NCBI GenBank assembly: GCA_020072965.1
Contig: JAIQFY010000036.1
Location: 1 to 56,834 of the forward strand
Direction of reading: 5' to 3'
Length of the DNA stretch: 56,834 nt
DNA from: Terriglobia bacterium
Lineage (GTDB): Bacteria; Acidobacteriota; Terriglobia; JAIQFV01
Positions within the stretch are counted from its first letter, which is position 1. Each line of letters opens with the position of its first letter. This document shows positions 28,536 through 47,353 of this stretch, piece after piece. Under the pieces are notes generated by a model. That model had not been told where the DNA came from and searched no databases. It was given only the letters and a program-made list of their open reading frames with translations. The translations under genes and the position numbers were made by a program.

Positions 28536-30176
28536 ATGCGAAGACGTCTGGCCCTTAAGCTGATTCTTTCATTGATGATACTGGTCGGGGTCACGGAGGG
28601 GATCTCCGGCCTTATCAATGTCAAGAGCCAGGAGCGTCAGCTTCTCGACGCTATGATCGAGGGTGCTGATCAACTCTCCAAAGCCATTACCAGCTCCACT
28701 TGGCATGCCATGCTGGCAGACCACCGCGACACCGCCTACGAAATGATGCAGACCATTGCCCTGAAACAGGGCATCAACAAAATTCAGATCTTTAACCGCG
28801 AAGGCCGGGTCATGTTTTCCACCCAACCCGGTGAGACCAGGCAGGTGGACAGGCGTTCGGAGACCTGTGCGTTATGTCATTCCTCGTTGCAGCCCCTGGT
28901 GAAGGTCGACGTGCCCTCTCGTGCACGCATATTTAAGGGACCGGAAGGGAGCCGCAAACTTGCCATGGTGACCCCGATTTACAATGAACCGGCCTGCAGC
29001 CAGGCAGCCTGTCACGCTCATCCGGAAAAGATGAAGGTCCTGGGCGTTCTCGACGTCACCTTGGACCTCGATCGGATCGACCGCGAGGTCGCCAACATTA
29101 AAGTCCGCGGATACCTGGCGACCGGTATCCATATTTTTTTGGTCAGCCTGTTCATCATTTTTTTCACCCAACACTTCGTGGATGCTCCGATTCGGAAACT
29201 GATCGACGCCACCAAAGCTGTTAGCGCCATGCAACTCGACAAACCCATTAAGGTGGAATCGAGTGAAGAGCTGGGTGAGCTGGCCCGTTCATTTGATGTC
29301 ATGCGAGAACGCCTGAAGCAGTCCGTGGCCGAAAACGAGCAATTCCTTCAGTCCCTGGAAGCCAAGGTGGAAGAAAGGACTGAACAGTTGAAGGCGGCGA
29401 ACCAGAAGCTCATGCAAACCGATCGTCTTGCCTCCCTCGGACAACTCTCAGCCAGTGTGGCACATGAGATCAACAATCCTCTCTCGGGAGTCCTGAACCT
29501 GTCCAAGCTGATGCAACGCATTCTCAAGGACGATGGCATCCCCCCCAACCGGATCGAGGAATTCCGGCGGTTTCTCTCACAGATCGTGAACGAGACGACC
29601 CGGGTGGGTCGAATCGTGTCCGACCTTCTGGCTTTTTCGCGGCGCTCCAAGCCCCAAAGTAAGCGCGCGGATTTGAATGCCATTGTGAAAACCACCCTCT
29701 CCCTGGTCTCCCACAAACTATCGCTGGGGAACGTTGGAGTCAATTTGAACCTTGCGGAAAACCTTCCCGTGGTGCCTTGTGACAGCTCTCAGATGCAACA
29801 GGTGGTGATGAATCTTATAATGAATGCCGCGGAAGCGACCTACCGGAAGGGCCAGGGCAGTGTGACGATCACGACACGGGTCCAGGCGGGTGGCTCGAAA
29901 GCGGTTCTGGAAGTGGTAGACAACGGGGAGGGGATCGCCCCGGAAAACATGTCGAAGATCTTTGATCCCTTCTTTTCCACCAAGGAAGAAGGCAAGAGTG
30001 TTGGCCTGGGACTGGCCGTGGTGTACGGCATTGTGGACTCCCACGGAGGCGACATTGAAGTGAAGAGCAAGCGGGGTGAAGGCTCCATGTTTCGAGTGGT
30101 TCTTCCGCTCAGCCCCGAGCAAGAGGTGGCTGAGGCGGCTCCCGCGTCAACCGTGGAAAAAGGAAGCAGAATGTGA
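28536..30176 (+). CDS. membrane sensor histidine kinase with c-heme-like motifs
   Basis: A 546-residue kinase. TM1 is ~7-28 and TM2 ~190-211, framing a periplasmic sensor domain with CALCH (C111-C114-H115, CxxCH) and CSQAACH (C154, C159-H160, CX4CH, a spacing known in cytochrome c3). The end of the domain, HPEKMKVLGVLDVTLDL, resembles heme-containing periplasmic sensors of deltaproteobacteria. HAMP (~212-265), a coiled coil, HisKA with H310 (SVAHEINNPLSG) and a HATPase domain (N-box NLIMNAAEA, DNGEGI, GLGLAVVYG) follow. It probably reads periplasmic redox state or a heme ligand and phosphorylates the regulator two genes downstream. GGAGGT precedes ATG 28536. Confidence 0.9.
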   Translation: MRRRLALKLILSLMILVGVTEGISGLINVKSQERQLLDAMIEGADQLSKAITSSTWHAMLADHRDTAYEMMQTIALKQGINKIQIFNREGRVMFSTQPGETRQVDRRSETCALCHSSLQPLVKVDVPSRARIFKGPEGSRKLAMVTPIYNEPACSQAACHAHPEKMKVLGVLDVTLDLDRIDREVANIKVRGYLATGIHIFLVSLFIIFFTQHFVDAPIRKLIDATKAVSAMQLDKPIKVESSEELGELARSFDVMRERLKQSVAENEQFLQSLEAKVEERTEQLKAANQKLMQTDRLASLGQLSASVAHEINNPLSGVLNLSKLMQRILKDDGIPPNRIEEFRRFLSQIVNETTRVGRIVSDLLAFSRRSKPQSKRADLNAIVKTTLSLVSHKLSLGNVGVNLNLAENLPVVPCDSSQMQQVVMNLIMNAAEATYRKGQGSVTITTRVQAGGSKAVLEVVDNGEGIAPENMSKIFDPFFSTKEEGKSVGLGLAVVYGIVDSHGGDIEVKSKRGEGSMFRVVLPLSPEQEVAEAAPASTVEKGSRM

Positions 30177-30748
30177 CCTTCCTTTATTTAGCGCCCCAGG
30201 GCGCGGTGGATGATGAAGTTCTCACCATCATCGAGACGTGCCTTTGGGCCAACTTCGGGTATGAGATACGCCAGCTGGGATCGTCGGCCGAGCCCGAGTA
30301 CGCCTTCGACCTGCGGCGCCGGCAGTACAGCTCCACCCTGATCCTGCGCCAGCTGGTGGTCAAATGCCCTCCTGATGCCGCCCGCATCCTGGCGGTCACC
30401 GAGAAGGACCTGTTTATCCCCATGCTTAGCTTTATTTTCGGACAGGCTCAGCTGAATGGAACCGTCGCCATCATCTCGCTGGCCCGTCTTCGACAGGAAT
30501 TCTACGGACTTCCGTCAAACCGGATGCTGTTGCTGGCACGGGTCGTCAAGGAGGCGCTCCACGAGATGGGCCACACCTTTGGCCTGATCCATTGTCCCGA
30601 GCGCACTTGCCCCATGTCTCTCTCCACCAATATTCACCAGGTTGATACTAAAGGCAGCGAGTTCTGCGCCGGTTGCCGCGCGCTTCTTCGGGAAAACATT
30701 GGCGCGACATACGAACAAGCCGCAAATATTATGCGTGCGGAGGATTGA
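30173..30748 (+). CDS. archaemetzincin family zinc metalloprotease
   Basis: A 191-residue archaemetzincin. The zinc motif HEMGHTFGLIHC (H130, E131, H134, H140) is followed by C141-x4-C146-P-M148 and later C165-x2-C168, closely matching the family's HExxHxxGxxHC-x4-CxM...CxxC pattern with its second, cysteine-bound zinc. No signal peptide, so cytoplasmic. The GTG start overlaps the kinase stop (GTGA), and the stop lies 2 nt before the regulator's ATG, so it is embedded in a two-component operon. Its substrate is unknown; processing or turnover of signalling or heme proteins is speculation. Confidence 0.88.
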   Translation: MTFLYLAPQGAVDDEVLTIIETCLWANFGYEIRQLGSSAEPEYAFDLRRRQYSSTLILRQLVVKCPPDAARILAVTEKDLFIPMLSFIFGQAQLNGTVAIISLARLRQEFYGLPSNRMLLLARVVKEALHEMGHTFGLIHCPERTCPMSLSTNIHQVDTKGSEFCAGCRALLRENIGATYEQAANIMRAED

Positions 30749-30750
30749 TC

Positions 30751-32109
30751 ATGAAAACACGGTGGGAAATTCTTGTGGTCGATGATGAAGAAGTGATGCG
30801 TGAATCCCTGGCCGCCTGGCTGCGCGAGGACGGCTACGACGTCAATACTGCCTCCTCCGGACGCGACGCCATCGAAAAGGCCCGCCAGAAGGACTATGCC
30901 ATCTATTTCATCGACCTGAAAATGCCCGGGGGAATCGACGGCATCGAGACCATGATGGAGGTGCGAAAGGTCCACCCCGAAGCCTCCATCATCATCATCA
31001 CGGCCTATGCCACCGTCGACACAGCCATCACCGCCATGAAGGAGGGGGCGCAGGAGTATATCGTCAAGCCGTGCAATCCTGAGGAAATCTCGCTGCTGGT
31101 CAATCGCATCATCAAGATCAAGAACCTTCAGCGGGAAAATACGATTCTGAGGAAGAAACTGACCAAGCAGTACTGCTTCCACGACATCATCAGCAAGAAC
31201 CCGAAGATGCTCGAGATATTTCAGTTGATCCAGGAGATCGCCAGCCTCCGAAGCACGGTGCTCCTGCAGGGAGAGAGCGGCACGGGGAAGGAACTGATCG
31301 CCCGGGCAATTCACTTTTCCGGAGACCGGGCCGAACAGCCCTTCATTGGCGTCTCTTGCGCCGCCCTCGCCGAGACCTTGCTGGAGTCAGAACTGTTCGG
31401 TCATGAAAAAGGGTCGTTCACCGGGGCGGTCACGCAGAAGAAAGGCAAATTTGAGATGGCCGATGGCGGAACCATTTTCCTGGACGAGATCGGAGATATT
31501 TCTCCCAAACTGCAGATGGATCTGCTTCGAGTGTTGCAGGAGCGGTGCTTCTATCGTGTCGGCGGCTCCGAAGAGATTAAGGTGGATGTGCGTATCATCG
31601 CCGCGACCAACGTCGATCTTCAGCAAGCGGTGCTCGACGGCAAGTTCCGTGACGATCTTTTTTACCGCCTCAACGTCATCAATATCCGGATCCCCCCCCT
31701 CCGGGATCGCCGCGAGGACATCCCCGTGCTGGCCCGGAGTTTCGTGGAACGCATCGCTCATGAACTGGGTAAGGAGGTGAGCGATATCTCTGAAGGCTCC
31801 CTCAAACTTCTGCTTGACCACAACTGGCCGGGCAACGTCCGTGAATTGGAAAACGCCGTGGAGCGCGCCATCGTCACATGCCGGGGGAGAGCCCTCACGG
31901 AGGAGGATTTCACCTTCCTGACACCACGGGTCGAAGCGAATCGTGGCTGGTCGGTCCCCGCAAATGTCACCCTGCAGGAGTTGGAGAAGGAGGTGATTGC
32001 CGCAACCATCCAGCGGACCCATGGCAACATCAAGGAAGCTGCTGCGGCGCTGGGTATCGATCGGTCCACATTGTATGAGCGGATTAAGAAGTTCGAAATC
32101 CCGAGATAG
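30751..32109 (+). CDS. NtrC-family sigma-54-dependent response regulator
   Basis: A 452-residue activator. The receiver domain has phosphoacceptor D55 (YFIDLKMPG), the AAA+ domain has Walker A GESGTGK (174-180), the sigma-54-contacting GSFTGA loop (221-226) and Walker B TIFLDEIGD, and a Fis-type HTH lies at the C-terminus (NIKEAAAALGIDRSTLYERIKKF). ATG 30751 has GGAGG 7 nt upstream. It should be phosphorylated by the heme-motif kinase and activate a sigma-54 promoter; the nearest good candidate is at 39655-39670, in front of the Qrc-like operon. Confidence 0.95.
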   Translation: MKTRWEILVVDDEEVMRESLAAWLREDGYDVNTASSGRDAIEKARQKDYAIYFIDLKMPGGIDGIETMMEVRKVHPEASIIIITAYATVDTAITAMKEGAQEYIVKPCNPEEISLLVNRIIKIKNLQRENTILRKKLTKQYCFHDIISKNPKMLEIFQLIQEIASLRSTVLLQGESGTGKELIARAIHFSGDRAEQPFIGVSCAALAETLLESELFGHEKGSFTGAVTQKKGKFEMADGGTIFLDEIGDISPKLQMDLLRVLQERCFYRVGGSEEIKVDVRIIAATNVDLQQAVLDGKFRDDLFYRLNVINIRIPPLRDRREDIPVLARSFVERIAHELGKEVSDISEGSLKLLLDHNWPGNVRELENAVERAIVTCRGRALTEEDFTFLTPRVEANRGWSVPANVTLQELEKEVIAATIQRTHGNIKEAAAALGIDRSTLYERIKKFEIPR

Positions 32110-32314: not shown

Positions 32315-33160
32315 TTAGGGTTCCAGAAACATCTGGCCCCACACCGCATCCCAGTCCAAGGACGGATATTCCTTCGAGAGATCCTCCACCAACGCACCGC
32401 CGTCTGCAAGGCTCATTCCCACGCCATCGGCCGCCAGTGAGAACTCCAGCCGCTCCATCTCGCGGGCCAACCACGGCCGGATCTCCGCGCCCCGCAGCAG
32501 GTGCCGCGTATCCATTTTCTTCCCGAGCGGCTTCAGCTTGAGATACCATCCCGCCTTCTTGCCACCGGTCTGAATCACTTCCCCATCTACCGGCGATAGA
32601 ATGCGCAAGTCCGATCCATTCTTTTTGAAATGCCACGCGGTTCCATTCAGATGGAGTGAAGTTCCCGCCGCGGGCAAGCGGACTTCGTCCGGTTCACCGA
32701 TAAGGCGCGACCCAAAATCGTCCAGCCCCACGGTGGTCGTTCCATCCGGTTCGGTCATGACCCAGGTGTGACCCCGGTGGTACTGGCGCTCCAAGGGCAT
32801 GTCAAAACCGAGGATGCACCCTTCTTCGTCTCCGGTTTCATAGCCGGGGTGGATCGTCCGAATTTTTGAGGCCACAAGCTTCGCGTGGTCAGGGCACTCG
32901 CGGCAATCGAATCCTCTTTCGCAGGTCCGATGCCGGAATTCACCGGTCAGTTCGTGCCGACAGGTGCGGTTTCCCTCCGGCAGATCTTCAAAATCCAGTT
33001 TCCACCGGATTTGGTCGGCCTTTTGGGATTGGAAATCCTTTAGAGAGCGTACCAGCACGATCCCCATCGTCCCCAAAATGATCGCTACGACCGAATAAAA
33101 GATGCCGAGAAAGATAAGATTGCCGGGCTCCCACGTGAATCCATAAACCCCAGGAAACAT
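32315..33160 (-). CDS. membrane-anchored H-protein-like (lipoyl-fold) protein with Cys4 motif
   Basis: A 281-residue protein. One TM helix (~12-38) is followed by a positive stretch (RSLKDFQSQK), predicting a cytoplasmic C-terminus. A Cys motif (CRHELTGEFRHRTC...CRECPDH, four Cys) precedes a domain resembling glycine cleavage H protein: HRGHTWVMTEPDGTTTVGLDD then HFKKNGSDLRILSPVDGEVI. A Lys sits near the lipoylation position (KKNGSD) but spacing to the next SPVDG is two residues longer than in GcvH, so lipoylation is uncertain. No other glycine-cleavage gene is nearby. It is the last gene of the Qrc-like operon, 12 nt after the NrfD-like gene, whose stop abuts its GGGAGG. Confidence 0.8.
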   Translation of the reverse strand: MFPGVYGFTWEPGNLIFLGIFYSVVAIILGTMGIVLVRSLKDFQSQKADQIRWKLDFEDLPEGNRTCRHELTGEFRHRTCERGFDCRECPDHAKLVASKIRTIHPGYETGDEEGCILGFDMPLERQYHRGHTWVMTEPDGTTTVGLDDFGSRLIGEPDEVRLPAAGTSLHLNGTAWHFKKNGSDLRILSPVDGEVIQTGGKKAGWYLKLKPLGKKMDTRHLLRGAEIRPWLAREMERLEFSLAADGVGMSLADGGALVEDLSKEYPSLDWDAVWGQMFLEP

Positions 33161-33172
33161 TTCAAACCTCCC

Positions 33173-34405
33173 TTACGATTGCCTGAGCTCCTTTTCCTGC
33201 GGGAACAGAGGCAGGTACCTGAACGAGAGCGAATAGATCAAAACCCCATAAGCCACCACTGCGAGAAAGGTGGCCGTTTCCTGCCAACTGGGAACATACG
33301 AGAGGAAGCGGTCAAACGGAAGTGTCGGCAGCGCTAGCGTCTGGATGGTGAAGACAAACCTGTTCAGCATGACGCCGACACACACCAGAAACGCCGCCGA
33401 CACGAGCCAGCCGGTCTGCTCCCTCCTCTTCTTGTCCAGCAGAATGATCGCCGGCAATAGTCCACACACCACAATTTCAGCGAACAGGAGCCATGTGCCA
33501 AACGGCTCCCAGGAATAGAAATCGAAGGGATTAAAGCCGGAGGCGGGAGCGGTGTGGTTGATCCAGATTAAAGTGTCAATTGTCTTGAACAGGACATAGA
33601 CCATCAGGAGGATACCGGAGATGCGACCCAGCAGGCTGAGCACCTCCCGTTTCACCAGTTCTTTCTTGGACAGCTTGGAAACAAGCCACGTCGTCAACAG
33701 GATAAAGCTGGGTCCGGCGGCAATCGCCGACAGAATGAAAAGAAAAAAGGTCGACGGCCAGATGCCGATACCTTCCCGGAAGGCAAAGGGACGGCCCCGG
33801 AGCACGCCATATAATCCGCCCAGGGAACCCTGGTGGAAGAACGACAGAAACGTTCCCACGCCCGCCAGGACATACATGACTTTGTGGAGATGGAACTCGA
33901 ACACCAGGAGCGAGGGGATCTGCCGGAGCTTGCGGTTGCGCAACACCAGCGGGGCATACTCAACCAACAACACCGTCAGGTAGCACGTGATGCAAAAGGT
34001 GACTTCGGTCAACATGGAGTGAACATTGGGATGCCAGAACGTGAACCACGCCCGCAGCGGCTGCCCCACGTCCACCATGAGGACCACGATCGCCCCGCTG
34101 TAACAGATGAGCCCCAGGACCACGGCGCTGTTGATGACGGCTTTCAACTGATCCTTCTTTAGAATATAGAGCAAAAATCCGGTAAAAAATGCTCCCGCGC
34201 CCAATGCGATTATGGTGAGGTCCAGGTAGATCCACAGACCGAAAGCAAAGCGGTTGTCCATGTTGGTTTGGTTGAGGCCCCGTGCCAGGCAAAGATAACC
34301 GGCATACAGTCCCAATCCCAAGAGGGCGACCCAGGGAAGAATCCACAGCAGGAACTTTGAAAGAGGGCTCCGCCGGAGGCCACGAATGATGAGTTGTTTA
34401 TCCAT
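33173..34405 (-). CDS. qrcD: NrfD/PsrC-like membrane subunit of Qrc-type menaquinone reductase
   Basis: A 410-residue protein with about ten membrane helices (for example LLWILPWVALLGLGLYAGYL, TIIALGAGAFFTGFLLYIL). It has NrfD-family features: GAGAFFTG, VDVGQPLRAWFTFWHPN, SMLTEVTFCITCYL and FHQGSLGGLYGV. In Qrc complexes this subunit binds menaquinone and anchors the periplasmic subunits. ATG 34405 overlaps the ferredoxin gene by 8 nt and has GGAGAAGG upstream; the open frame to 34744 is a shadow of qrcC. The subunit order (cytochrome, Mo-family protein, Fe-S, NrfD) matches Desulfovibrio qrcABCD. Confidence 0.82.
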   Translation of the reverse strand: MDKQLIIRGLRRSPLSKFLLWILPWVALLGLGLYAGYLCLARGLNQTNMDNRFAFGLWIYLDLTIIALGAGAFFTGFLLYILKKDQLKAVINSAVVLGLICYSGAIVVLMVDVGQPLRAWFTFWHPNVHSMLTEVTFCITCYLTVLLVEYAPLVLRNRKLRQIPSLLVFEFHLHKVMYVLAGVGTFLSFFHQGSLGGLYGVLRGRPFAFREGIGIWPSTFFLFILSAIAAGPSFILLTTWLVSKLSKKELVKREVLSLLGRISGILLMVYVLFKTIDTLIWINHTAPASGFNPFDFYSWEPFGTWLLFAEIVVCGLLPAIILLDKKRREQTGWLVSAAFLVCVGVMLNRFVFTIQTLALPTLPFDRFLSYVPSWQETATFLAVVAYGVLIYSLSFRYLPLFPQEKELRQS

Positions 34406-35174
34406 GGACCTTCTCCTTCGCTTTGGGTTTCTGGACTTCCTGCTGAGCGATTTGACGGACCCAGGCTTGATCGGAACGGTAGTAGACCTTCGGCTCGGTT
34501 CCCAGCGTTTCGAGCATTCGAAAGGCATGCCCGTTCTGAACCAGCTGGGCCACTTCACTGTTCGGATCCGCCAGGTCACCAAAGGTGATCGCTCCGGTCG
34601 GGCAGGCCTCAACGCAGGCAGGTTGGTAGTCGGAGGGATCGATTTCGTCCCGGCCCTCGGCGGCGGCCTTCGCTCTTGCCGCCTGAAGCCGTTCATGACA
34701 GAAGTTGCATTTTTCCACGACCCCGCGCATGCGGGGAGAGACATCCGGATTCAGGGTTTTTTCCATTCCTGCCGGCCACACGGGGTCCCACCAGTTGAAG
34801 TAACGCGCGTGGTAAGGACACGCCGTCATGCAGTACCGGCAGCCTAGGCATCGCACCGGGATTTGAGCCACAATCCCGCTGGCGGCGTCGACTTCAACGG
34901 CCTTCTGCGGGCAGACCGAGACACAGGGGGTGTGCTCCCCGCACTGCTGGCATGGCATCGGAATGTAGGCGCTGCGGTTGTTGGGGAAAGGAAGTCCATT
35001 ATCGAACTTGTAAACTCTGACCCAGGTGATCCCGGTGCGATCGGTTGCTTTGGCTGTTGCCGGCGGAATGTTGTTTTCAACCGCACATGCCACCATGCAC
35101 GCGCCACAACCCGTGCACTTGTCCAAATCGATCACCATTCCGTAGCGATGTTGTTTCTTGTTTTTGGTGTCCAT
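34398..35174 (-). CDS. qrcC: four-cluster ferredoxin subunit of Qrc-type complex
   Basis: A 258-residue iron-sulfur protein of the PsrB/HybA/DmsB type. Cys groups CTGCGACMVAC, CQQCGEHTPCVSVCPQ, CLGCRYCMTACPY and CNFCHERL...ACVEACPTGAI supply four 4Fe-4S sites. It passes electrons between the molybdopterin-family subunit and the membrane quinone site. It has no signal peptide and probably crosses the membrane with the TAT-exported QrcB. It overlaps qrcD by 8 nt and follows qrcB by 61 nt. Confidence 0.85.
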   Translation of the reverse strand: MDTKNKKQHRYGMVIDLDKCTGCGACMVACAVENNIPPATAKATDRTGITWVRVYKFDNGLPFPNNRSAYIPMPCQQCGEHTPCVSVCPQKAVEVDAASGIVAQIPVRCLGCRYCMTACPYHARYFNWWDPVWPAGMEKTLNPDVSPRMRGVVEKCNFCHERLQAARAKAAAEGRDEIDPSDYQPACVEACPTGAITFGDLADPNSEVAQLVQNGHAFRMLETLGTEPKVYYRSDQAWVRQIAQQEVQKPKAKEKVHG

Positions 35175-35235
35175 TTATATTGTCCCTCTCCACTCGCTCA
35201 ACCGTTCCCATGGGCGTCCGCAGCGGCGGACGCTC

Positions 35236-37461
35236 CTACGTCGTCACCCTGGCTCGCGTCACGCGCCACGCGCAGTCATCATCGAGATGGCAAAGATCCA
35301 GGATGTTTTGTGTGCCTTGTGTCTCGGCGGTGCTGAACGCCTCTACAGAGGGTCCGACCGCTGCCTCGATCACTCTCGGCATTACCGCAGCGTCGAACCG
35401 GACCTCGACTTTCATTGCGCCCTTCTCAGTCTCGATCCACGCCTGTCCGCCATCGGTAAGCCCGAAAGCCCTGCCGGTTTCCGGATTCACGGCGGTTTGG
35501 CCCGAAAGCTTGCGGAGGCCGGACTCCTGAAACAGCTTGGTCATCAGTGGAGAGATCTGCCCATTCCCGGTCGCGCCGCGCCATCCGAAGGGCATTAAAA
35601 TGAAGCCAAATGCAGCGACAAGCCCGGGTTCTCGCGAGAGCCGCCCCTGCCCCGCGACTTGCAGCCGCTCGAAATTGTCCTTCGTTTTTCCCAGGAGCGA
35701 GAAGTTTGGCATGGGCTTGGTCTCTGCTTTTGAATCGATCCAGCAGCCACCCTCGGAAAGGAGTTTCCAGAGTTGATCTGCAGAGCTTATTTCAGCGATC
35801 GGCACGGTCTTTCCATCACCGGAGCTAAACACAGTTCCGCGCTTCGCCCGGTAAATGGTCTCTACACGGTTTTTCAGCTGCGCCTCATAGGTGCTCCCTT
35901 GCGCTTCTTCGACAAACGGCACGCCGGCCACACTCGCCAGACGCTTGACCCATTCAAAAGGTTCAGTCACCCCCGCAGGCGCGGTCAGCAGCGCGGACGA
36001 CAAGCTGAAAGAAGCGGTCGTCGCATCGATCGGCGCAGGGACATCCTGGATCGATTCGAGGTAGGTTGGCGCCGGAATAATGTAGCCGGCATGCTTTGTC
36101 AGACCCGTCAGGTACGAAGACAGGCTCACGACAAGAGCCCCTTGTGGAACCAGTTTCCTTTCCAAAAGCGCCCAGGGGAGGGCATTTCCGGACTCGGCCG
36201 CATCCAGAATGAGAATTCGGATGGAATGGTCGGGAACATCGCGGATTTCCATTTCAGGTACAGTGGGATGATGGCTGGTCGACATAATATCCGGTACCTC
36301 TCGCCTCGCAACGATCCCGCCGGGACGCCCGATGCCGCCGAGGAGAAGATTTAATCCCGCAATAGCGGTCTCTTCTTCTTTGCCCAAGGGTCCGCCTCCA
36401 GGATCCCCACCGCCGATTACAATCGCCGGCGCGTTTTGCGCCAGGGTTCGTGCTGTCGCGATGATCCTGTCGGGAGCGATCCCGCTGATGCCGGCCGCAT
36501 ACTCCGGGGTAAACTGCTCGACCAGGTTGAGGTAGGCGCGGCCATCTTTCTTTCGAAAGTCAATGGCCTTGCGGCGGATTAAATCCTGGTCGTAAAGATT
36601 TTCATGAATGAGGACATGGGCCAGTCCAAGAGCAAAAGCCGCTTCCGTGCCGGGGTTGATGGCCACCCACTCGTCGGCGAAGGAGGCGGTTCGCGATTGT
36701 CGCGTCTCCACCTGAATGATTTTCAACCGGTAGTCGGGATCTTTTGATCCCTGAGCCTTGATAATCTCCATCATCCGGCCGGGCGTTCCCCAACCATCCA
36801 GAAGCGGGGCCCCGAAGCTCAGGATCATCCGCGTGTTCTCCAGGTCATAGCCCACCGGTCCATAAGGCTTTTCCATCATCTCCTGCAAAACACACAGAGT
36901 GTCACCGCCGAGGGCTGAAGTGGTCACGTAAACTCCATTCGGAACACTCTCCAGGAACCGGCGGTAGACCCTCGAAATGGTTCGTCCGGGTTGTTGATCG
37001 AGGATGACGATCGACTCGTTGGGAGTGCCCGGCTTCAGCCTTGAAATCGCCGCGGCAAGGGCAGCTTCAACCGCCTCCCGGCTCACTGGTGCGAACTCGA
37101 TCTTTCCGTTTTTTTGGACACGCTGGAGCGGCTGCAATGCGCGCCCGGGATGATAGGGGAGATGGTGTCCTCCCAATCCGGCCGGGCAAAGGGTTCCGCG
37201 GCTGACCGGATGTCGAGTCACGCCGGTCAGCATGACGGGCTGGTCGCCGACGCATCGAACCCGCGCCCCGCACCCCGCAGGACACAAAGTGCAAGTGGTG
37301 AATTTCGTGCGAATCTCACCATGGAGCGGCCGGGGAATCCACGACCAGTTCTGAGACCAGATGGCCGCATCATCGATGAGTTTCCAGGGAATCGGCGTCA
37401 GGAAAGCGCCCACCGCGGACCCCCCCACGAATTTGAATAAATCCCGACGCGAAATCTTCAT
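35236..37461 (-). CDS. qrcB: TAT-exported molybdopterin-oxidoreductase-family subunit (QrcB-like)
   Basis: A 741-residue periplasmic protein. The TAT signal is SRRDLFKFVGG (residues 4-14). C57-x2-C60-x3-C64-x27-C92 binds a 4Fe-4S cluster. The body has the dinucleotide-binding architecture of the DMSO reductase family (AWVAINPGTEAAFALGLAHVL-type segment, GGIGRPGGI). The stretch TPIPWKLIDDAAIWSQNW just after the signal matches my recall of QrcB proteins, which carry the fold but no molybdenum cofactor. Whether this protein keeps a metal ligand cannot be decided by eye. Neighbours identify it as part of a cytochrome-linked menaquinone reductase. Confidence 0.82.
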   Translation of the reverse strand: MKISRRDLFKFVGGSAVGAFLTPIPWKLIDDAAIWSQNWSWIPRPLHGEIRTKFTTCTLCPAGCGARVRCVGDQPVMLTGVTRHPVSRGTLCPAGLGGHHLPYHPGRALQPLQRVQKNGKIEFAPVSREAVEAALAAAISRLKPGTPNESIVILDQQPGRTISRVYRRFLESVPNGVYVTTSALGGDTLCVLQEMMEKPYGPVGYDLENTRMILSFGAPLLDGWGTPGRMMEIIKAQGSKDPDYRLKIIQVETRQSRTASFADEWVAINPGTEAAFALGLAHVLIHENLYDQDLIRRKAIDFRKKDGRAYLNLVEQFTPEYAAGISGIAPDRIIATARTLAQNAPAIVIGGGDPGGGPLGKEEETAIAGLNLLLGGIGRPGGIVARREVPDIMSTSHHPTVPEMEIRDVPDHSIRILILDAAESGNALPWALLERKLVPQGALVVSLSSYLTGLTKHAGYIIPAPTYLESIQDVPAPIDATTASFSLSSALLTAPAGVTEPFEWVKRLASVAGVPFVEEAQGSTYEAQLKNRVETIYRAKRGTVFSSGDGKTVPIAEISSADQLWKLLSEGGCWIDSKAETKPMPNFSLLGKTKDNFERLQVAGQGRLSREPGLVAAFGFILMPFGWRGATGNGQISPLMTKLFQESGLRKLSGQTAVNPETGRAFGLTDGGQAWIETEKGAMKVEVRFDAAVMPRVIEAAVGPSVEAFSTAETQGTQNILDLCHLDDDCAWRVTRARVTT

Positions 37462-37514
37462 GGTTGTGATTCTTCCTTTTTATAGTCCGTAAGCATCCTG
37501 GGCAAAAGAAAGCA

Positions 37515-37618
37515 AACCGCAAAGGACGCAAAGAAGGCGCAAAGAGTGCCAAGGAACAAATGGTTTAAACCTTCTCCCTCCTTGCGGTCTTTGCGCCTTC
37601 TTTGCGTCCTTTGCGGTT
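37515..37618. repeat. 30-bp perfect inverted repeat inside the Qrc-like operon
   Basis: The left arm 37515-37544 and right arm 37589-37618 are perfect reverse complements built of GCAAAGGAC/GCAAAGAAGGC words, with a 44-nt loop. It lies between the cytochrome gene stop (37645) and the qrcB start (37461). The hairpin could slow transcription or protect mRNA ends and so set subunit ratios. Confidence 0.85.
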
Positions 37619-37644
37619 GATTCTTGTCTCATAGAATGTGGCTC

Positions 37645-38238
37645 TCATTTATGGCACAGCAGGCAGCTGTTCGAGACTCCCCGCTGCTCATGGCACGAGG
37701 CGCAGTTATCCATTTTCTTGCCATCCCACACCTCGGAGTGAATTCGGGAGAGGGAATGGCCCCAGATGTCCCGGCTGTAGCTAGTCAGACGATCGCTCTC
37801 GTAGGGCCGGAGAGTGTCGCCCGCGCCATGCGGGCCATGACAGCGTTCGCATTGGATCTTGGCGAGCCTCACATGCTGGACATGAGAAAAATAGGCATTT
37901 TCAGGCTGGCGCGAATAGACTAGCCATGGAATTTCTGTGTTCGTCGCTACGTACTTTTCGACAAGAACTTTCTCATCCGGTGAATTGCCCAGGAGGCCCA
38001 CATGACATCCCCCACATTTGCTGATAGAAGGAATCCCATTGAAGCGGCCGTCCGCTTGGAACGAGTGGCAGTCTTCACAGGTCAATCCGGCCTTGTCCCC
38101 GGTATGCACGCGGTGGCTGAATTGGATCGGCTGGTTGGTTTTCTGGTATAGCATGCGTGGAAATCCAAACCAGCCCACTACCAGCATCACAAGAACTCCC
38201 GCCAAAAAAATCAGTCTTCCGCGGTTCTTTACCACCAT
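37645..38238 (-). CDS. qrcA: membrane-anchored pentaheme cytochrome c (QrcA-like)
   Basis: A 197-residue protein with an N-terminal uncleaved helix (~8-28, after MVVKNRGR, so hemes face the periplasm) and five CxxCH motifs at about residues 54, 75, 130, 179 and 192. FSHRVHTGDKAGLTCEDCHS, IPWLVYSRQPENAYFSHVQH and the SISKCGGCH segment closely resemble QrcA, the electron-entry cytochrome of Qrc (six hemes in Desulfovibrio). The electron donor is unknown; no hydrogenase, formate dehydrogenase or type I c3 is in the window. ATG 38238 overlaps the upstream gene by 10 nt. Confidence 0.87.
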   Translation of the reverse strand: MVVKNRGRLIFLAGVLVMLVVGWFGFPRMLYQKTNQPIQFSHRVHTGDKAGLTCEDCHSFQADGRFNGIPSISKCGGCHVGLLGNSPDEKVLVEKYVATNTEIPWLVYSRQPENAYFSHVQHVRLAKIQCERCHGPHGAGDTLRPYESDRLTSYSRDIWGHSLSRIHSEVWDGKKMDNCASCHEQRGVSNSCLLCHK

Positions 38239-39203
38239 CGCCTCCAACTCGCATACGGAGAAAAGAATTGATTAAACAGGTTCAGCACTTCTTCCCGGTT
38301 CAGGTGATGGATCAACTCGCCGTTAAAGATGCCGCCGTCCATGACCAGCCTTTGGTCTTCGGGTTGTGACTGGGCAATATGTTCATGGACAAATTCCGAA
38401 GCCCGGTCCACCTCCTTCTTCATCCACTCCACGGCCGCCTTCCCCCGAACCAGGCCGGCCCGAGCCCCGATTTCCGCCCCTGAAATCGCCGCATTCGGCT
38501 CAATGCCTTCAAACAGCCATCCCGGACCATAGGGATCCGCGACCAGCTTTTCCGGATTGGCTCGCAGGTAATTGTTCGTTCCGGTGACGTGCATGTAGTA
38601 GGGGAAGACCATGTGCAGGTCGACCCCGTTTACGGTGAGCACGGCGGTCGGCCGTTGGACACCTTTCGCAGTCAGGAAACTTAACTTGTCTACCCCCGCG
38701 ATCATCCTGGTGAGGAAGGCATCTACCCCCACGTGACAGACGCCGTCTTTGTTGGTTTCCAACCACATGTGATTTCCCGTATACCCCAACTCGAGAGGCA
38801 CCCTGATTCCTTCCACCCATTCATCCATAGCAACCTCCTGTGGCCCCTTTCCAGCCAGGCTCACTGCCGATGTGTCACGCACTTCCGGTTCCGCCATTGC
38901 CAGGTAGAGTTCGCAATGAAGGTGACTTTCGTTGCCACACCGGGAAAGCAATGACTCGCTGTAAGGGATGTACTTGGTTACGGAAGCGGCAGAGCAATAT
39001 TGAACGAGCGATTCGTGGAGGAAAGGGCAGTGCGACTGGCTCGGTTGCTCCTCGTGAAGCGTCTTGGCATCCGGGCAGGTCACATAGGCAGGTGAAGAAC
39101 ACTTCTCTCCATTTGCATTGGCCGCAGTTCGCAGAATCATCTTCTTGTAAGCCGACGACTTGCAAAATTTCACTTGTGCTTCCCTAAGAAACGGACATCT
39201 CAT
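38229..39203 (-). CDS. Cys-rich plus H-protein-like domain protein
   Basis: A 324-residue soluble protein. The first ~100 residues hold two Cys repeats of the form CPFL-x6-[FY]C...C...C (C3, C14, C35, C43 and C59, C70, C88, C96). A domain then resembles glycine cleavage H protein (LGYTGNHMWLETNKDGVCHV, GVDAFLTRMIAGVDKLSFL), but the lipoyl-lysine hairpin is replaced by FPYYMHVTGTNNYL, so it should not be lipoylated. A helical C-terminus follows. ATG 39203 has AGGGGGT just upstream; the frame to 39377 overlaps the gene before it. It overlaps the cytochrome gene by 10 nt, so the complex or its assembly is its likely place of action. Confidence 0.8.
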   Translation of the reverse strand: MRCPFLREAQVKFCKSSAYKKMILRTAANANGEKCSSPAYVTCPDAKTLHEEQPSQSHCPFLHESLVQYCSAASVTKYIPYSESLLSRCGNESHLHCELYLAMAEPEVRDTSAVSLAGKGPQEVAMDEWVEGIRVPLELGYTGNHMWLETNKDGVCHVGVDAFLTRMIAGVDKLSFLTAKGVQRPTAVLTVNGVDLHMVFPYYMHVTGTNNYLRANPEKLVADPYGPGWLFEGIEPNAAISGAEIGARAGLVRGKAAVEWMKKEVDRASEFVHEHIAQSQPEDQRLVMDGGIFNGELIHHLNREEVLNLFNQFFSPYASWRRWW

Positions 39204-39264
39204 AACACCCCCTGTCATCTTCAGAATTCCGGAATCTACAGAATTTCGGAATTCCTTCATTCGG

Positions 39265-39618
39265 TTAATTGACGGAACGATGAATGGTGGACTCTTCCCC
39301 AAACCTCTCGAGCGGAGGATCCCAATGCTTCTCTTCCCGCAAACTCCATCGGTCCTTATCAAATCGCTCGCCGCCATCGGCCATCGTCAACCCCAGTTCG
39401 GGAACCATATAGGAGTACTCGTCCAACTTCGCGGTCTCACGCTTGTCCGCCCGCACTCGCTGCATAATTTCTTGAAAGATTGCCCTCCCCAAAACCAGAA
39501 CACAGATGCCCGTGACAACACCCAACGCGATATTCGTGACGTTAAGCCAAAATGTTTTTGGATCGCCAAATTCAAACACGGTGTGCCTCCTTCTATTTTT
39601 CTTTGAAGTCTTCCTCAT
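39265..39618 (-). CDS. small single-pass membrane protein, first gene of Qrc-like operon
   Basis: A 117-residue protein. A strongly basic N-terminus (RKTSKKNRRRH) precedes one helix (~27-47, VTNIALGVVTGICVLVLGRAIF), placing the C-terminus (LDEYSYMVPELGLTMADGGERFD) in the periplasm. No family recognised. It is the promoter-proximal gene of the minus-strand operon, 61 nt before the Cys-rich H-like gene, and 25-30 nt from a sigma-54 promoter match. It may help assemble or tether the cytochrome subunit; that is inference. Confidence 0.7.
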   Translation of the reverse strand: MRKTSKKNRRRHTVFEFGDPKTFWLNVTNIALGVVTGICVLVLGRAIFQEIMQRVRADKRETAKLDEYSYMVPELGLTMADGGERFDKDRWSLREEKHWDPPLERFGEESTIHRSVN

Positions 39619-39654: not shown

Positions 39655-39670
39655 TGCAAATTCTGTTCCG
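39655..39670 (-). promoter_or_regulatory. sigma-54 (-24/-12) promoter of the Qrc-like operon
   Basis: On the minus strand, CGGAACAGAATTTGCA. The GG (-24) and GC (-12) are separated by exactly 10 nt, and 9 of 11 informative positions fit TGGCAC-N5-TTGCA. Transcription would start near 39644, about 26 nt before the first gene. The window encodes an NtrC-type activator in the facing operon. Confidence 0.7.
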
Positions 39671-40235: not shown

Positions 40236-42863
40236 ATGAGCACCGCCAGGCAAGATCTCATTCATATCCAATGCAATCGCCTCGGGTTGACCCTGATCAC
40301 CTTCTCGATTCTCATCATCGCGCTTGTTTCGACAGCGTCGAGGACATTCAGCAGCTGTGCGGCCCCAACCTTTCTTAATGGTCCGACCTTTACTTCGGCA
40401 GGAGTGTCCCCTAGTTCCATCGCCATCGGGGACCTCAACGCTGACGGCAAGCCTGATCTGGCGGTGGTCAACGAGGATTCCTCCAGCGTTTCGATCTTTC
40501 TGGGAAACGGCGACGGAACTTTCCGAGTACTCCAAGGCTTCTTAGTCGGGTTGGGCCCCCGTTCCATCGCGGTTGGCGATGTTGATGGCGATGGCAAACT
40601 TGATCTGGTCGTGGCCAACAGGCTCTCCAACAGCGTCTCCATCCTGGGGGGCAATGGGGACGGCACGTTTCGTATCAGGGTGGATTTTATTATCGGTGGC
40701 CATCCCTCGTTTGTGGCTCTGGGCGACTTTAACGGAGATGGCAAGATTGATCTCGCTCTGATCACCCAAGACGATGGCAATGCCACCATCCTGCTGGGCA
40801 ATGGCGACGGGACCTTTCAGGGGCCTGTCGGATTCAGTACGGGGGTCAACCCCCAAGGGCTGGCCGTGGGTGATTTCAACCGCGACGGTAAGGCCGATCT
40901 GGCCGTCGCCAACGAGAACTCCGACACGGTGTCTATCCTGCTGGGCAATGGCGATGGTACTTTTAAAACCGCCGTCAACCTGAGCGCCGGCGCAAGGGCT
41001 GATTTCGTCACGGTGGCTGATCTCGATGGGGATGGCAGGGCCGACCTGGTGGTGGCCAACCGGTTATCAAACAGCGTTTCGGTTCTGCTGGGCAAGGGGG
41101 ACGGCACTTTCCAGACTCCCGTAGAGTATTTGACCCAGGGCATCTCACCCAATTTCATCGCCGTGGCCGACTATAACGGTGACGGCAAACTCGATCTCGC
41201 CGTTTTGAATGAGAACTCCATCTCCGTTGCGATTTTGTTGGGCAATGGGGACGGTACCTTCCAGCTTGCGGTTCTTTTTCTGGCCGGACCCAGCCCCCAG
41301 GCCATCCTCACCAGTGAGTTCACGGGCGACGGCAAGGCCGACCTGGTGGTCGTCAACAAATCCACCAACACCGTCTCGCTGTTGTTAAATGGTTGCACCT
41401 CACCGACCAATGCGGTCAACCTCCAGGTCTTGCCGGGGGGATCCAACACGACATCGACCCTGGGGAGCGAGGGACCCGTTCAAGCGGGTGATGCGATAGT
41501 CAATCTCACCACCGGCGCCGCTCCTTTCGGAACCGCCGTCTTCAGTGTCACCCAGAATGGGGTCGTGGTCGCCGAAGCCGGAGTCCCTGCCTCTCCGCCT
41601 ACGACGGCCGCCCGGATCTTCATTGATCTTCAGACGGGGGCCACCGCCAAGTCCGGTCGCCTTGAAGCCACGGCAATCACGATCAACACGGGCTTTGCGA
41701 TCGTGAACCGTGGCGGCGCGACCGCGAATGTCATCTTCACCCTGCGCGAGATCAACGGACAACCCACGGCCATCGGACACGGCCTGATTCCGGCCGGCGC
41801 GCACATCGCCAAGTTCATTAACCAGCTCCTCGACATCGCCCCCGACTTCGTGTTGCCGTCAACAATGCTCACGGGCCACCAGTTTGCGACGCTCGAAATA
41901 CGCAGCGACCAGCCCCTCTCTGTCCTGGCGTTGCGGTTGACCACGAACCAGCGCGGCGAAACCCTCATCACGAGCACCCCCATCGCCGATCTGACCAAGC
42001 CGCCATCGACCGACCCCGTGTTCTTTCCTCAATTTGTCGACGGGGGCGGCTACCAGAGTGAATTCTTCCTGCTCAACACCTCCACCGTCGTTGCCAATGG
42101 GACAATCAAGATCCTGGGCAATGACGGTGTTCCGCTCAACACGTCCCTCGTCAATGGCCAGGCAGGATCATCGTTCCCCTACTCCATCCCGCCGGCAGGG
42201 TTTTTTATCTTCCAGACCACCGGGTTGGTGCAGACGGTCAACACGGGCTCGGTGCAGATTGTTCGAAGCGGCAATTTCACGCCCGTGGCGGCAGGGGTGT
42301 TCAAGTTCACCCGGGGAAATATCCTGGTGACCGAGTCAGGCATCGCTGCCACCATCCCGACCACCCATGCCCGCATCTTCGTGGATACCTCGACCACTGC
42401 CTTGGGTCACCACAACACGGGATTGGCGATTGCAAACCCGGAGCTCTTCACCGCCCTCAATTTGGCCGTCACAGCGTTTCAGGCCGATGGATTAACTCCT
42501 GTGGCCGTGCCCACAAACTTTACCACGCTCCCCGGCGGGGGACACACCGCCGCGTTTGCGGGCGAGTTGGTTCCCGGTCTCCCCGGCGGCTTTATCGGCG
42601 TGTTTGACATGACCTCGGCCTCGCCGTTCGTGGCCCTGACGCTTCGATCCCTCGACAATTCCCGCGGAGATCAACTCCTGACCACTTTCCCGGTGGCAGA
42701 CTTCAACCAGCCTGCCCCATTCCCGATCGTCTTTCCACAGATCGCCGACGGTGGAGGATTCAAAACCCAAATCATTTTGTTGGGTGCCGGCATCGGCGCC
42801 AACACCACGATCAATTTCTTCACGGATAACGGCTCCGCCCTGGCGGTTGCCAAGAAACCGTAG
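40236..42863 (+). CDS. exported FG-GAP/VCBS beta-propeller protein with C-terminal beta modules
   Basis: An 875-residue protein with a signal/anchor segment (~18-36). Residues ~58-388 hold seven repeats of about 47 residues, each with a Ca-binding D-x-[DN]-x-DGK-x-DL and ending LLGNGDGTF, predicting a seven-bladed propeller. The C-terminal half contains about two copies, plus a partial third, of a module marked by FPQ-x-DGGG, FVDTS, NTGLAI-N, LPGGGHTAAF and FIGVFDM; the same module forms the protein at 14642-15544. It is likely a surface or periplasmic protein for binding. Function unknown. AGGAGG precedes ATG 40236. Confidence 0.88.
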   Translation: MSTARQDLIHIQCNRLGLTLITFSILIIALVSTASRTFSSCAAPTFLNGPTFTSAGVSPSSIAIGDLNADGKPDLAVVNEDSSSVSIFLGNGDGTFRVLQGFLVGLGPRSIAVGDVDGDGKLDLVVANRLSNSVSILGGNGDGTFRIRVDFIIGGHPSFVALGDFNGDGKIDLALITQDDGNATILLGNGDGTFQGPVGFSTGVNPQGLAVGDFNRDGKADLAVANENSDTVSILLGNGDGTFKTAVNLSAGARADFVTVADLDGDGRADLVVANRLSNSVSVLLGKGDGTFQTPVEYLTQGISPNFIAVADYNGDGKLDLAVLNENSISVAILLGNGDGTFQLAVLFLAGPSPQAILTSEFTGDGKADLVVVNKSTNTVSLLLNGCTSPTNAVNLQVLPGGSNTTSTLGSEGPVQAGDAIVNLTTGAAPFGTAVFSVTQNGVVVAEAGVPASPPTTAARIFIDLQTGATAKSGRLEATAITINTGFAIVNRGGATANVIFTLREINGQPTAIGHGLIPAGAHIAKFINQLLDIAPDFVLPSTMLTGHQFATLEIRSDQPLSVLALRLTTNQRGETLITSTPIADLTKPPSTDPVFFPQFVDGGGYQSEFFLLNTSTVVANGTIKILGNDGVPLNTSLVNGQAGSSFPYSIPPAGFFIFQTTGLVQTVNTGSVQIVRSGNFTPVAAGVFKFTRGNILVTESGIAATIPTTHARIFVDTSTTALGHHNTGLAIANPELFTALNLAVTAFQADGLTPVAVPTNFTTLPGGGHTAAFAGELVPGLPGGFIGVFDMTSASPFVALTLRSLDNSRGDQLLTTFPVADFNQPAPFPIVFPQIADGGGFKTQIILLGAGIGANTTINFFTDNGSALAVAKKP

Positions 42864-47122: not shown

Positions 47123-47353
47123 CGCGACCTGGGGCCCCGCCGCCGCGGCGAAACAACTGCGAGCTTTTGGACCCTACGTGACCTTGCGTCCTCTCCAAAT
47201 CGTTGAGATCGCCAATCAAGATTGCATCTCTCCGGGCCCTCTCTCCCGAACCCGGTCCCCACACGGTAGATATGATAATCCGTGCCTTGATTTCCGGGAG
47301 AAACCACACCTTGATCTCGATCGCCTGGAGTGAGAGAATTAGAAACAGACAAC

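Follow-up and report, generated by a model that had tools for sequence, protein, structure and literature searches.

H-protein-like genes flank a Qrc-type menaquinone reductase in an acidobacterium without dsrA

The window analysed here, 56,834 nucleotides long, is a whole contig (G000:C62) of the 5.9 Mb, 100%-complete genome of a soil-type member of the Acidobacteriota. On its minus strand it carries a single operon (39579-32315) in which the genes of a menaquinone reductase, by sequence of the Qrc type (qrcABCD), are flanked by genes for two proteins with a lipoate-less H-protein domain, named here HA and HB, and for a small membrane protein, TMs. The explanation that we favour, to which we give about an even chance of being right, is that these three proteins belong, as accessory subunits facing the cytoplasm, to the quinone module made of QrcC and QrcD.

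Operon and gene calls

All seven genes listed by a first-pass annotation of this DNA were present in the order and place that it gave. From head to tail they are:

TMs, 39265-39579, minus strand: small protein with one transmembrane (TM) helix, predicted N-out/C-in, with a cytoplasmic tail containing LGLTMADGGE
HA, 38229-39203, minus strand: soluble protein with two four-Cys units, a lipoate-less H-protein domain and a DGG box
QrcA, 37645-38247, minus strand: membrane-anchored pentaheme cytochrome c (NF041781)
QrcB, 35236-37461, minus strand: Tat-exported molybdopterin-oxidoreductase-like protein with a conserved four-Cys motif (best family NF041783)
QrcC, 34398-35174, minus strand: ferredoxin-like protein with 16 conserved Cys (NF041782)
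QrcD, 33173-34405, minus strand: quinone-reactive membrane subunit of the NrfD family (NF041784)
HB, 32315-33160, minus strand: TM-anchored protein with the Cys motif C-x12-C-x5-C-x2-C, a lipoate-less H domain and a LADGG box

Two of the starts differ from the longest open reading frame (ORF) model. The likeliest start of TMs is GTG 39579, behind the Shine-Dalgarno sequence AGAAGGAGG, and since the charged N-terminus of the longer model is then gone, TMs would be N-out/C-in. For HA the likeliest start is ATG 39203 (MRCPFLREAQ..., with AGGGGG in front), which gives a protein of 324 amino acids. With this start HA does not overlap TMs, so that one of the overlaps previously reported in the operon has to be given up; another is kept, as QrcA likely starts at an ATG at about 38238 and overlaps the 3' end of HA.

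The Qrc core

The equivalog cut-offs of NCBIfam were passed by QrcD (NF041784, 595.2 bits, cut-off 570) and by QrcA (NF041781, 207.9 bits, cut-off 180). QrcC and QrcB also had a Qrc family as their best one, in both cases under the cut-off (383 bits against 400 for NF041782 and 292 bits against 440 for NF041783, respectively). Against the HybB and HmcC families QrcD reached only about 122 bits each (121.8 for HmcC, cut-off 550).

Residues of N. vulgaris QrcD that were shown by mutagenesis or proposed to belong to the menaquinone site or to the proton path (PMC6303296, PMC13059093, PMC8076601) were located by offset from the published residue lists, with one value, 8, used throughout. As about 20 published positions agree, this mapping may be considered safe for the N-terminal half of the protein. 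D70, Y110, D120, S138, E142 and Y150 (D. vulgaris numbering) were invariant in 89 of 89 sequences, as were the positions of F63, I67 and L140, and M139 was kept in 88. At the same offset R87, E164, Y227, Y311, E319, R358 and E413 gave no match, which may reflect differences in loop length or genuine divergence.

The other subunits are also well conserved. Five CxxCH motifs were found in QrcA of 67 out of 68 relatives, the 16 Cys of QrcC are conserved at 99-100% in 77 sequences, and QrcB carries a Tat signal and a four-Cys motif (Cys57/60/64/92) conserved at 98-100%. When PDB sequences were compared, QrcA matched subunit A of alternative complex III and the QrcD profile had no match. A core of another family, the outcome that the first-pass annotation had named as speaking against its reading, was ruled out by the NCBIfam scores together with the residue conservation of QrcD. 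On these comparisons the core is of the Qrc type; the physiological direction of its electron flow is taken from homology only.

The accessory proteins

HA and HB match Pfam GCV_H (E 4e-5 and 1.5e-6, respectively) and stay under the cut-off of the GcvH equivalog (24-31 bits, cut-off 115.85-117). Structure prediction of each protein singly, which had been proposed as a check, returned the H-protein fold for both. The AlphaFold2 (AF2) model of HA (pLDDT 86.4) aligned with the E. coli H protein over 122 residues (Z 14.8, root-mean-square deviation 1.8) and that of HB (pLDDT 89.7) aligned with the H protein 1htp over 118 residues (Z 11.7, root-mean-square deviation 2.0); these structure searches aligned the H domains alone, the fold of the Cys units being outside their reach. 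In a tree of H domains the HA clade (support 1.0) is separate from the HB clade (0.93), and the deeper branches are unsupported.

The lipoylation sites had been described as degenerate, and the family alignments agree with this. The column of the lipoyl lysine holds Gly in 39 of 46 HA proteins and Lys in none of them, and in HB it holds mixed residues with Lys in five of 52, while the GcvH proper of the same genome keeps its lysine. This column contradicts a lipoate relay, one form of the redox relay first suggested for these proteins. That HA and HB are lipoate- or thiol-based electron relays, like LbpA of the sulfur-oxidising Hdr-like system, would be in keeping with their fold, their abundant cysteines and the precedent of an H-like protein in sulfur oxidation (PMC6067878); with the lysine replaced and Hdr-like genes absent from the operon families, we consider it very improbable.

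Each of the two proteins had also been credited with a Cys motif of its own. This is correct for HB, which has one four-Cys unit (Cys 67, 80, 86 and 89) invariant in 52 of 52 sequences; HA has two such units (Cys 3, 14, 35, 43 and 59, 70, 89, 97), and its eight Cys and the DGG are invariant in 46 of 46. The tail of TMs (LG.TMADGG) is conserved at 97-100% in 59 relatives. The DGG box is thus common to TMs (LG.TMADGGE), HA (DGG) and HB (LADGG), with a conservation of 94-100%, and in a DNA-level search TMADGG had a single coding match in the genome.

More Lys and Arg are found after the TM helix than before it in 52 of 52 HB and in 58 of 59 TMs proteins, and most members of HA are without a TM-like stretch. 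The H domain of HB, the tail of TMs and the soluble HA are accordingly placed by prediction on the cytoplasmic side, whence QrcD draws protons, so that all three would be on the side of proton entry. The cytoplasmic location foreseen for both H-like proteins is supported by these data. In two Ignavibacteriales loci (L130, 5594-6310, and L131) a second HB-like protein directly follows HB, and the copy of L130 is without a TM anchor.

Linkage and spread

A scan with the QrcD alignment over one genome per species (84,980 species) matched 119 relatives, of which the best 80 were kept, with 67-80% identity. These loci, most of them on contigs of metagenome-assembled genomes (MAGs), belong to Acidobacteriota, Ignavibacteria/Bacteroidota, KSB1, Kryptoniota, Eisenbacteria and Myxococcota, and the named relatives include many Terriglobia/Bryobacterales/Solibacter MAGs. 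HB stands directly after qrcD in all 78 loci with enough sequence, and TMs and HA stand ahead of qrcA in 52 of the 53 informative ones. The recurrence of the gene set in other genomes, found in the neighbourhood survey that had been called for, takes the arrangement beyond chance.

Among 396 genomes of the phylum QrcD was found in five. Full-length HA was present in all five and in one (G313) of the 391 without Qrc, and a random placement of the H-like genes, the other outcome that would have spoken against the annotation, was ruled out by this co-occurrence. In locus L105 there is no HA beside qrc and HA lies on another contig of that genome. A further genome without QrcD over the cut-off, G380, holds a Cys-unit fragment of HA, a lone HA-type double Cys unit without an H domain (L171, 7037-7549).

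Regulatory cassette

A cassette of three genes on the plus strand, convergent to the operon, recurs with it; its genes are listed here together with a putative promoter of the operon:

HK, 28536-30176, plus strand: histidine kinase (HK) whose sensor part has two heme-c-type motifs, CxxCH and CxxxCHxHP
AMZ, 30173-30748, plus strand: archaemetzincin-family gene (NF033823, 153.7 bits, cut-off 145)
RR, 30751-32109, plus strand: NtrC-type sigma-54-dependent response regulator (RR), start at MKTRWEIL
Putative sigma-54 -24/-12 promoter CGGAACAGAATTTGCA, 39655-39670, minus strand: upstream of TMs

Both motifs of the kinase are present in most of its relatives. Of the 49 Qrc loci that extend 5 kb or more past qrcD, 26 have the RR on that downstream side. 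Sites of the -24/-12 type scoring at least 13.5 were found upstream of TMs in 29 of 59 loci, compared with one on the reverse strand and 1.1 (maximum 4) in shuffled sequences. The site of the window itself is weaker (13.0). Such an element would match the adjacent sigma-54 regulator. An archaemetzincin-family gene wedged between a heme-type HK and a sigma-54 RR was seen across the phylum, both in Qrc loci and in Hmc-like ones.

Genome G313 has TMs and HA beside HK-AMZ-RR, with no qrcABCD-HB there and no QrcD over the cut-off anywhere in the genome. Its TMs has lost the ADGG and its HA has EGG where DGG is otherwise invariant. This single natural deletion suggests that the DGG box matters only when Qrc is present.

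The wider H-like family

A search with the HA profile found H-like proteins in 222 of the 396 genomes of the phylum, although weak matches may include ordinary GcvH. Of 65 H-like loci, 42 have an NrfD or an iron-sulfur (FeS) gene within 8 kb, and HK, RR and AMZ are near 41, 43 and 34 of them, respectively. More than one H-like gene is present in 19 loci, and 11, several of them at contig ends, have none of NrfD, FeS, HK, RR and AMZ. The DGG box was found in 25 of the 29 examined, and the HB spacing C-x12-C-x5-C-x2-C recurs (C-x-W-M-x-A-G-V-V-x-Y-K-L-C...).

The NrfD/FeS pairs of these loci are HmcBC/HybAB-like. In locus L174 HmcB reached 428.5 bits (cut-off 420), and the N-terminal helix or anchor of one H-like protein matched HmcD, one of the known subunits of Hmc, with 30.4 bits, under the cut-off of 34. 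QrcA and QrcB were undetected in the HmcBC-type loci. What the Qrc loci have in common with the wider H-like ones is an FeS/NrfD pair, QrcCD or HmcBC, together with the regulatory cassette. The DGG box, the cassette and this wider family are additions to the first-pass annotation.

Two further loci were observed. The same genome as the window has a second locus (G000:C106:89233-92055; L033, 9234-12056) with an H-like protein, an HmcB/HybA-like FeS protein and an HmcC/HybB-like NrfD protein; the H-like protein is without the DGG box and the neighbours resemble an NrfH-type cytochrome, a Rieske protein, cytochrome b and multiheme cytochromes. Locus L173 (8118-9702) holds two H-like genes in tandem, for a TM-anchored protein and for a soluble one with C-x12-C-x5-C-x2-C; HK-RR-AMZ come next, and no NrfD/FeS gene was detected in its 18 kb.

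The closeness to the cassette would be explained if the H-like proteins were a signalling arm with HK, AMZ and RR, sensing in what state the respiratory complex is and controlling its expression. The kinase is present and the NrfD/FeS pair undetected in 10 of the 65 loci, G313 keeps HA and TMs with the cassette, and a putative sigma-54 promoter lies upstream of TMs. However, HA, HB and TMs sit in the qrcABCD operon, apart from the kinase, and about half of the Qrc loci with enough downstream sequence have no cassette nearby and still keep HA and HB. Moreover, in G313 the DGG boxes decayed though the cassette stayed. We regard a signalling arm as unlikely.

The FeS subunit common to Qrc and HmcBC loci can also be read in another way, with HA, HB and TMs as assembly factors that load Fe-S into subunits of the QrcC/HmcB type, or hold QrcB, QrcC and QrcD before Tat export or insertion, and then leave. 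Assembly factors are typically accessory genes inside an operon, and the accessory proteins are cytoplasmic while QrcB has a Tat signal. However, the molybdopterin-like subunit is undetected in the wider loci, which a TorD/NarJ-like role for QrcB would leave unexplained, and the maturation role first suggested for the H-like proteins is weakened in so far as it concerns QrcB alone, since their relatives stand at HmcBC-type loci without it. Two permanently membrane-anchored proteins would also be unusual for such chaperones, and Desulfovibrio Qrc is reported with four subunits, HA, HB and TMs not among them (PMC13059093). An assembly function thus appears rather improbable, and it is ranked second, behind an accessory-subunit role in the QrcCD (and HmcBC) module and ahead of signalling partners.

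Proposed role of the accessory module

In the mechanism that we favour, Qrc would work as an electrogenic menaquinone reductase. Periplasmic electrons would enter the pentaheme QrcA and pass via QrcB and QrcC to menaquinone, on the side of QrcD that faces the periplasm. The protons would be taken from the cytoplasm through QrcD. TMs and HB would be single-helix anchors beside QrcD, with the soluble HA docking on both. The lipoate-free H domains could be platforms for protein binding, metal (Fe-S or Zn) may be bound by the Cys motifs and the shared DGG box may be a common contact. The accessory module would in this way cap or gate the cytoplasmic side (N-side) of QrcD, the site of proton entry, and it may have a part in reporting or coupling the redox state of the cytoplasm. 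In favour of this model are the family scores and invariant residues of the core, the linkage of HB, HA and TMs to it in several phyla, the co-occurrence of HA with Qrc, the predicted placing of all three proteins where protons enter, the FeS/NrfD pair and cassette shared with the wider loci, the HmcD-like helix and the altered DGG boxes of G313.

Some observations weigh against accessory subunits. The Myxococcota loci L087 and L124 are without HA and TMs, and no HA was found elsewhere in either genome; the Ignavibacteriae locus L113 has TMs and lacks HA, also elsewhere in its genome. The H-like loci with a kinase and no detected NrfD/FeS pair count in the same direction, and the deletion case, G313, is one genome. 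In addition, the QrcABCD of N. vulgaris was purified with its four subunits and is active and electrogenic in that form (PMC13059093), and the accessory module is therefore dispensable for the core reaction there.

More tentatively, and with less than even confidence, the lipoate-free DGG/Cys H-protein family as a whole may form a cytoplasmic sub-complex on Qrc- and Hmc-type NrfD modules, in Acidobacteriota and Ignavibacteria as well as in other phyla. This sub-complex would gate the entry of protons or signal the redox state of the cytoplasm to a heme-sensor/sigma-54 circuit. It would then be an undescribed control layer on electrogenic quinone reductases. Should the module belong to the complex, electrogenic modules of the QrcCD type would have undescribed cytoplasmic subunits and the control of N-side proton entry into NrfD-family proteins would become testable. 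By name transfer a large number of proteins would be labelled "glycine cleavage system protein H", and these results also offer a context for them.

Host physiology

No dsrA was found in the complete genome of the window, which rules out sulfate reduction in this host. The gene is absent from 51 of the 59 Qrc-positive genomes tested and present in eight, including the Ca. Sulfopaludibacter MAG CO124. With a Qrc core, no dsrA and H-like genes fixed in the locus, the suggestion of a Qrc variant in a non-sulfate reducer is upheld. The gene next to the [NiFe] hydrogenase of the genome resembles a cytochrome b of its own, so that Qrc need not serve as the electron outlet of this enzyme, and for this reason the hydrogenase was not adopted as the obvious donor. 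A tetraheme c3-like cytochrome is also encoded and is a candidate donor.

The missing donor and acceptor context of Desulfovibrio (a hydrogenase with a cytochrome-b-like gene and no dsrA) could point to a complex running in reverse, as a menaquinol oxidase that feeds periplasmic or extracellular acceptors and to which the N-side module is tied, and Qrc has been reported to be reversible in syntrophy (PMC6303296). As QrcD retains the residues on which the quinone-reducing enzyme depends and the c3-like cytochrome is available as a possible donor, this is quite improbable.

Elsewhere in the window, the divergent upstream neighbour of the operon (40236-42863) has repeats resembling FG-GAP/VCBS repeats, and a large multi-TM ORF (47330-49639) reads like a quinol-dependent nitric oxide reductase, with no NCBIfam match at 1e-5.

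Comparison with known systems

HA and HB share with GcvH a fold over about 120 residues and differ from it by the loss of the lipoyl lysine, a Cys-motif N-terminus and/or a TM anchor, a C-terminal DGG extension and the gene context of a respiratory complex. LbpA of sHdr sulfur oxidation is likewise a GcvH homologue taken into energy metabolism, but it binds lipoate (PMC6067878), whereas the lysine is lost here and the operon families are without Hdr-like genes. The Hmc/HmcBC-like modules have in common with the present locus the FeS and NrfD pair, the H-like/DGG proteins with HK, RR and archaemetzincin in the phylum, and an HmcD-like anchor. They differ in that QrcA and QrcB are undetected and their H-like proteins have no double Cys unit of the HA type.

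The CC-licensed literature searched held nothing relevant on H-like proteins with NrfD, Qrc or archaemetzincin, and an N-side module of Qrc was found described in none of it. Qrc has been placed in sulfate reducers of the Desulfobacterota (PMC6303296, PMC8076601, PMC13059093) and in one sulfate-reducing acidobacterium (PMC10564751). In the present scan it turned up in about 80 genomes from several further phyla, and most of those tested for dsrA were without it. The acidobacterium, MAG CO124, has a Qrc of the same clade and its locus (L074) includes TMs, HA, HB and the cassette; unlike the host of the window it is a dsrA-bearing sulfate reducer. Its qrcABCD genes were reported to be transcribed under anoxia, and "glycine cleavage" is absent from the main text of that paper (PMC10564751).

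The closest comparison is with the Qrc of Desulfovibrio/Nitratidesulfovibrio vulgaris, as described in PMC6303296 and PMC13059093. Both have the qrcABCD order and the residues of the menaquinone site and proton path, and QrcA and QrcD of the window are over the family cut-offs. For QrcA, five CxxCH motifs here stand against six hemes reported for D. vulgaris, and for QrcC 16 conserved Cys stand against the [3Fe-4S]+3[4Fe-4S] reported there; QrcB carries a four-Cys motif, whereas that of D. vulgaris is reported to be cofactor-free. Moreover the present hosts are mostly without dsrA, and the sigma-54/heme-kinase cassette is a further difference. Three N-side proteins are added here, TMs-HA before and HB after the core, and as they flank it in nearly all loci this is a variant and not the classical four-subunit complex.

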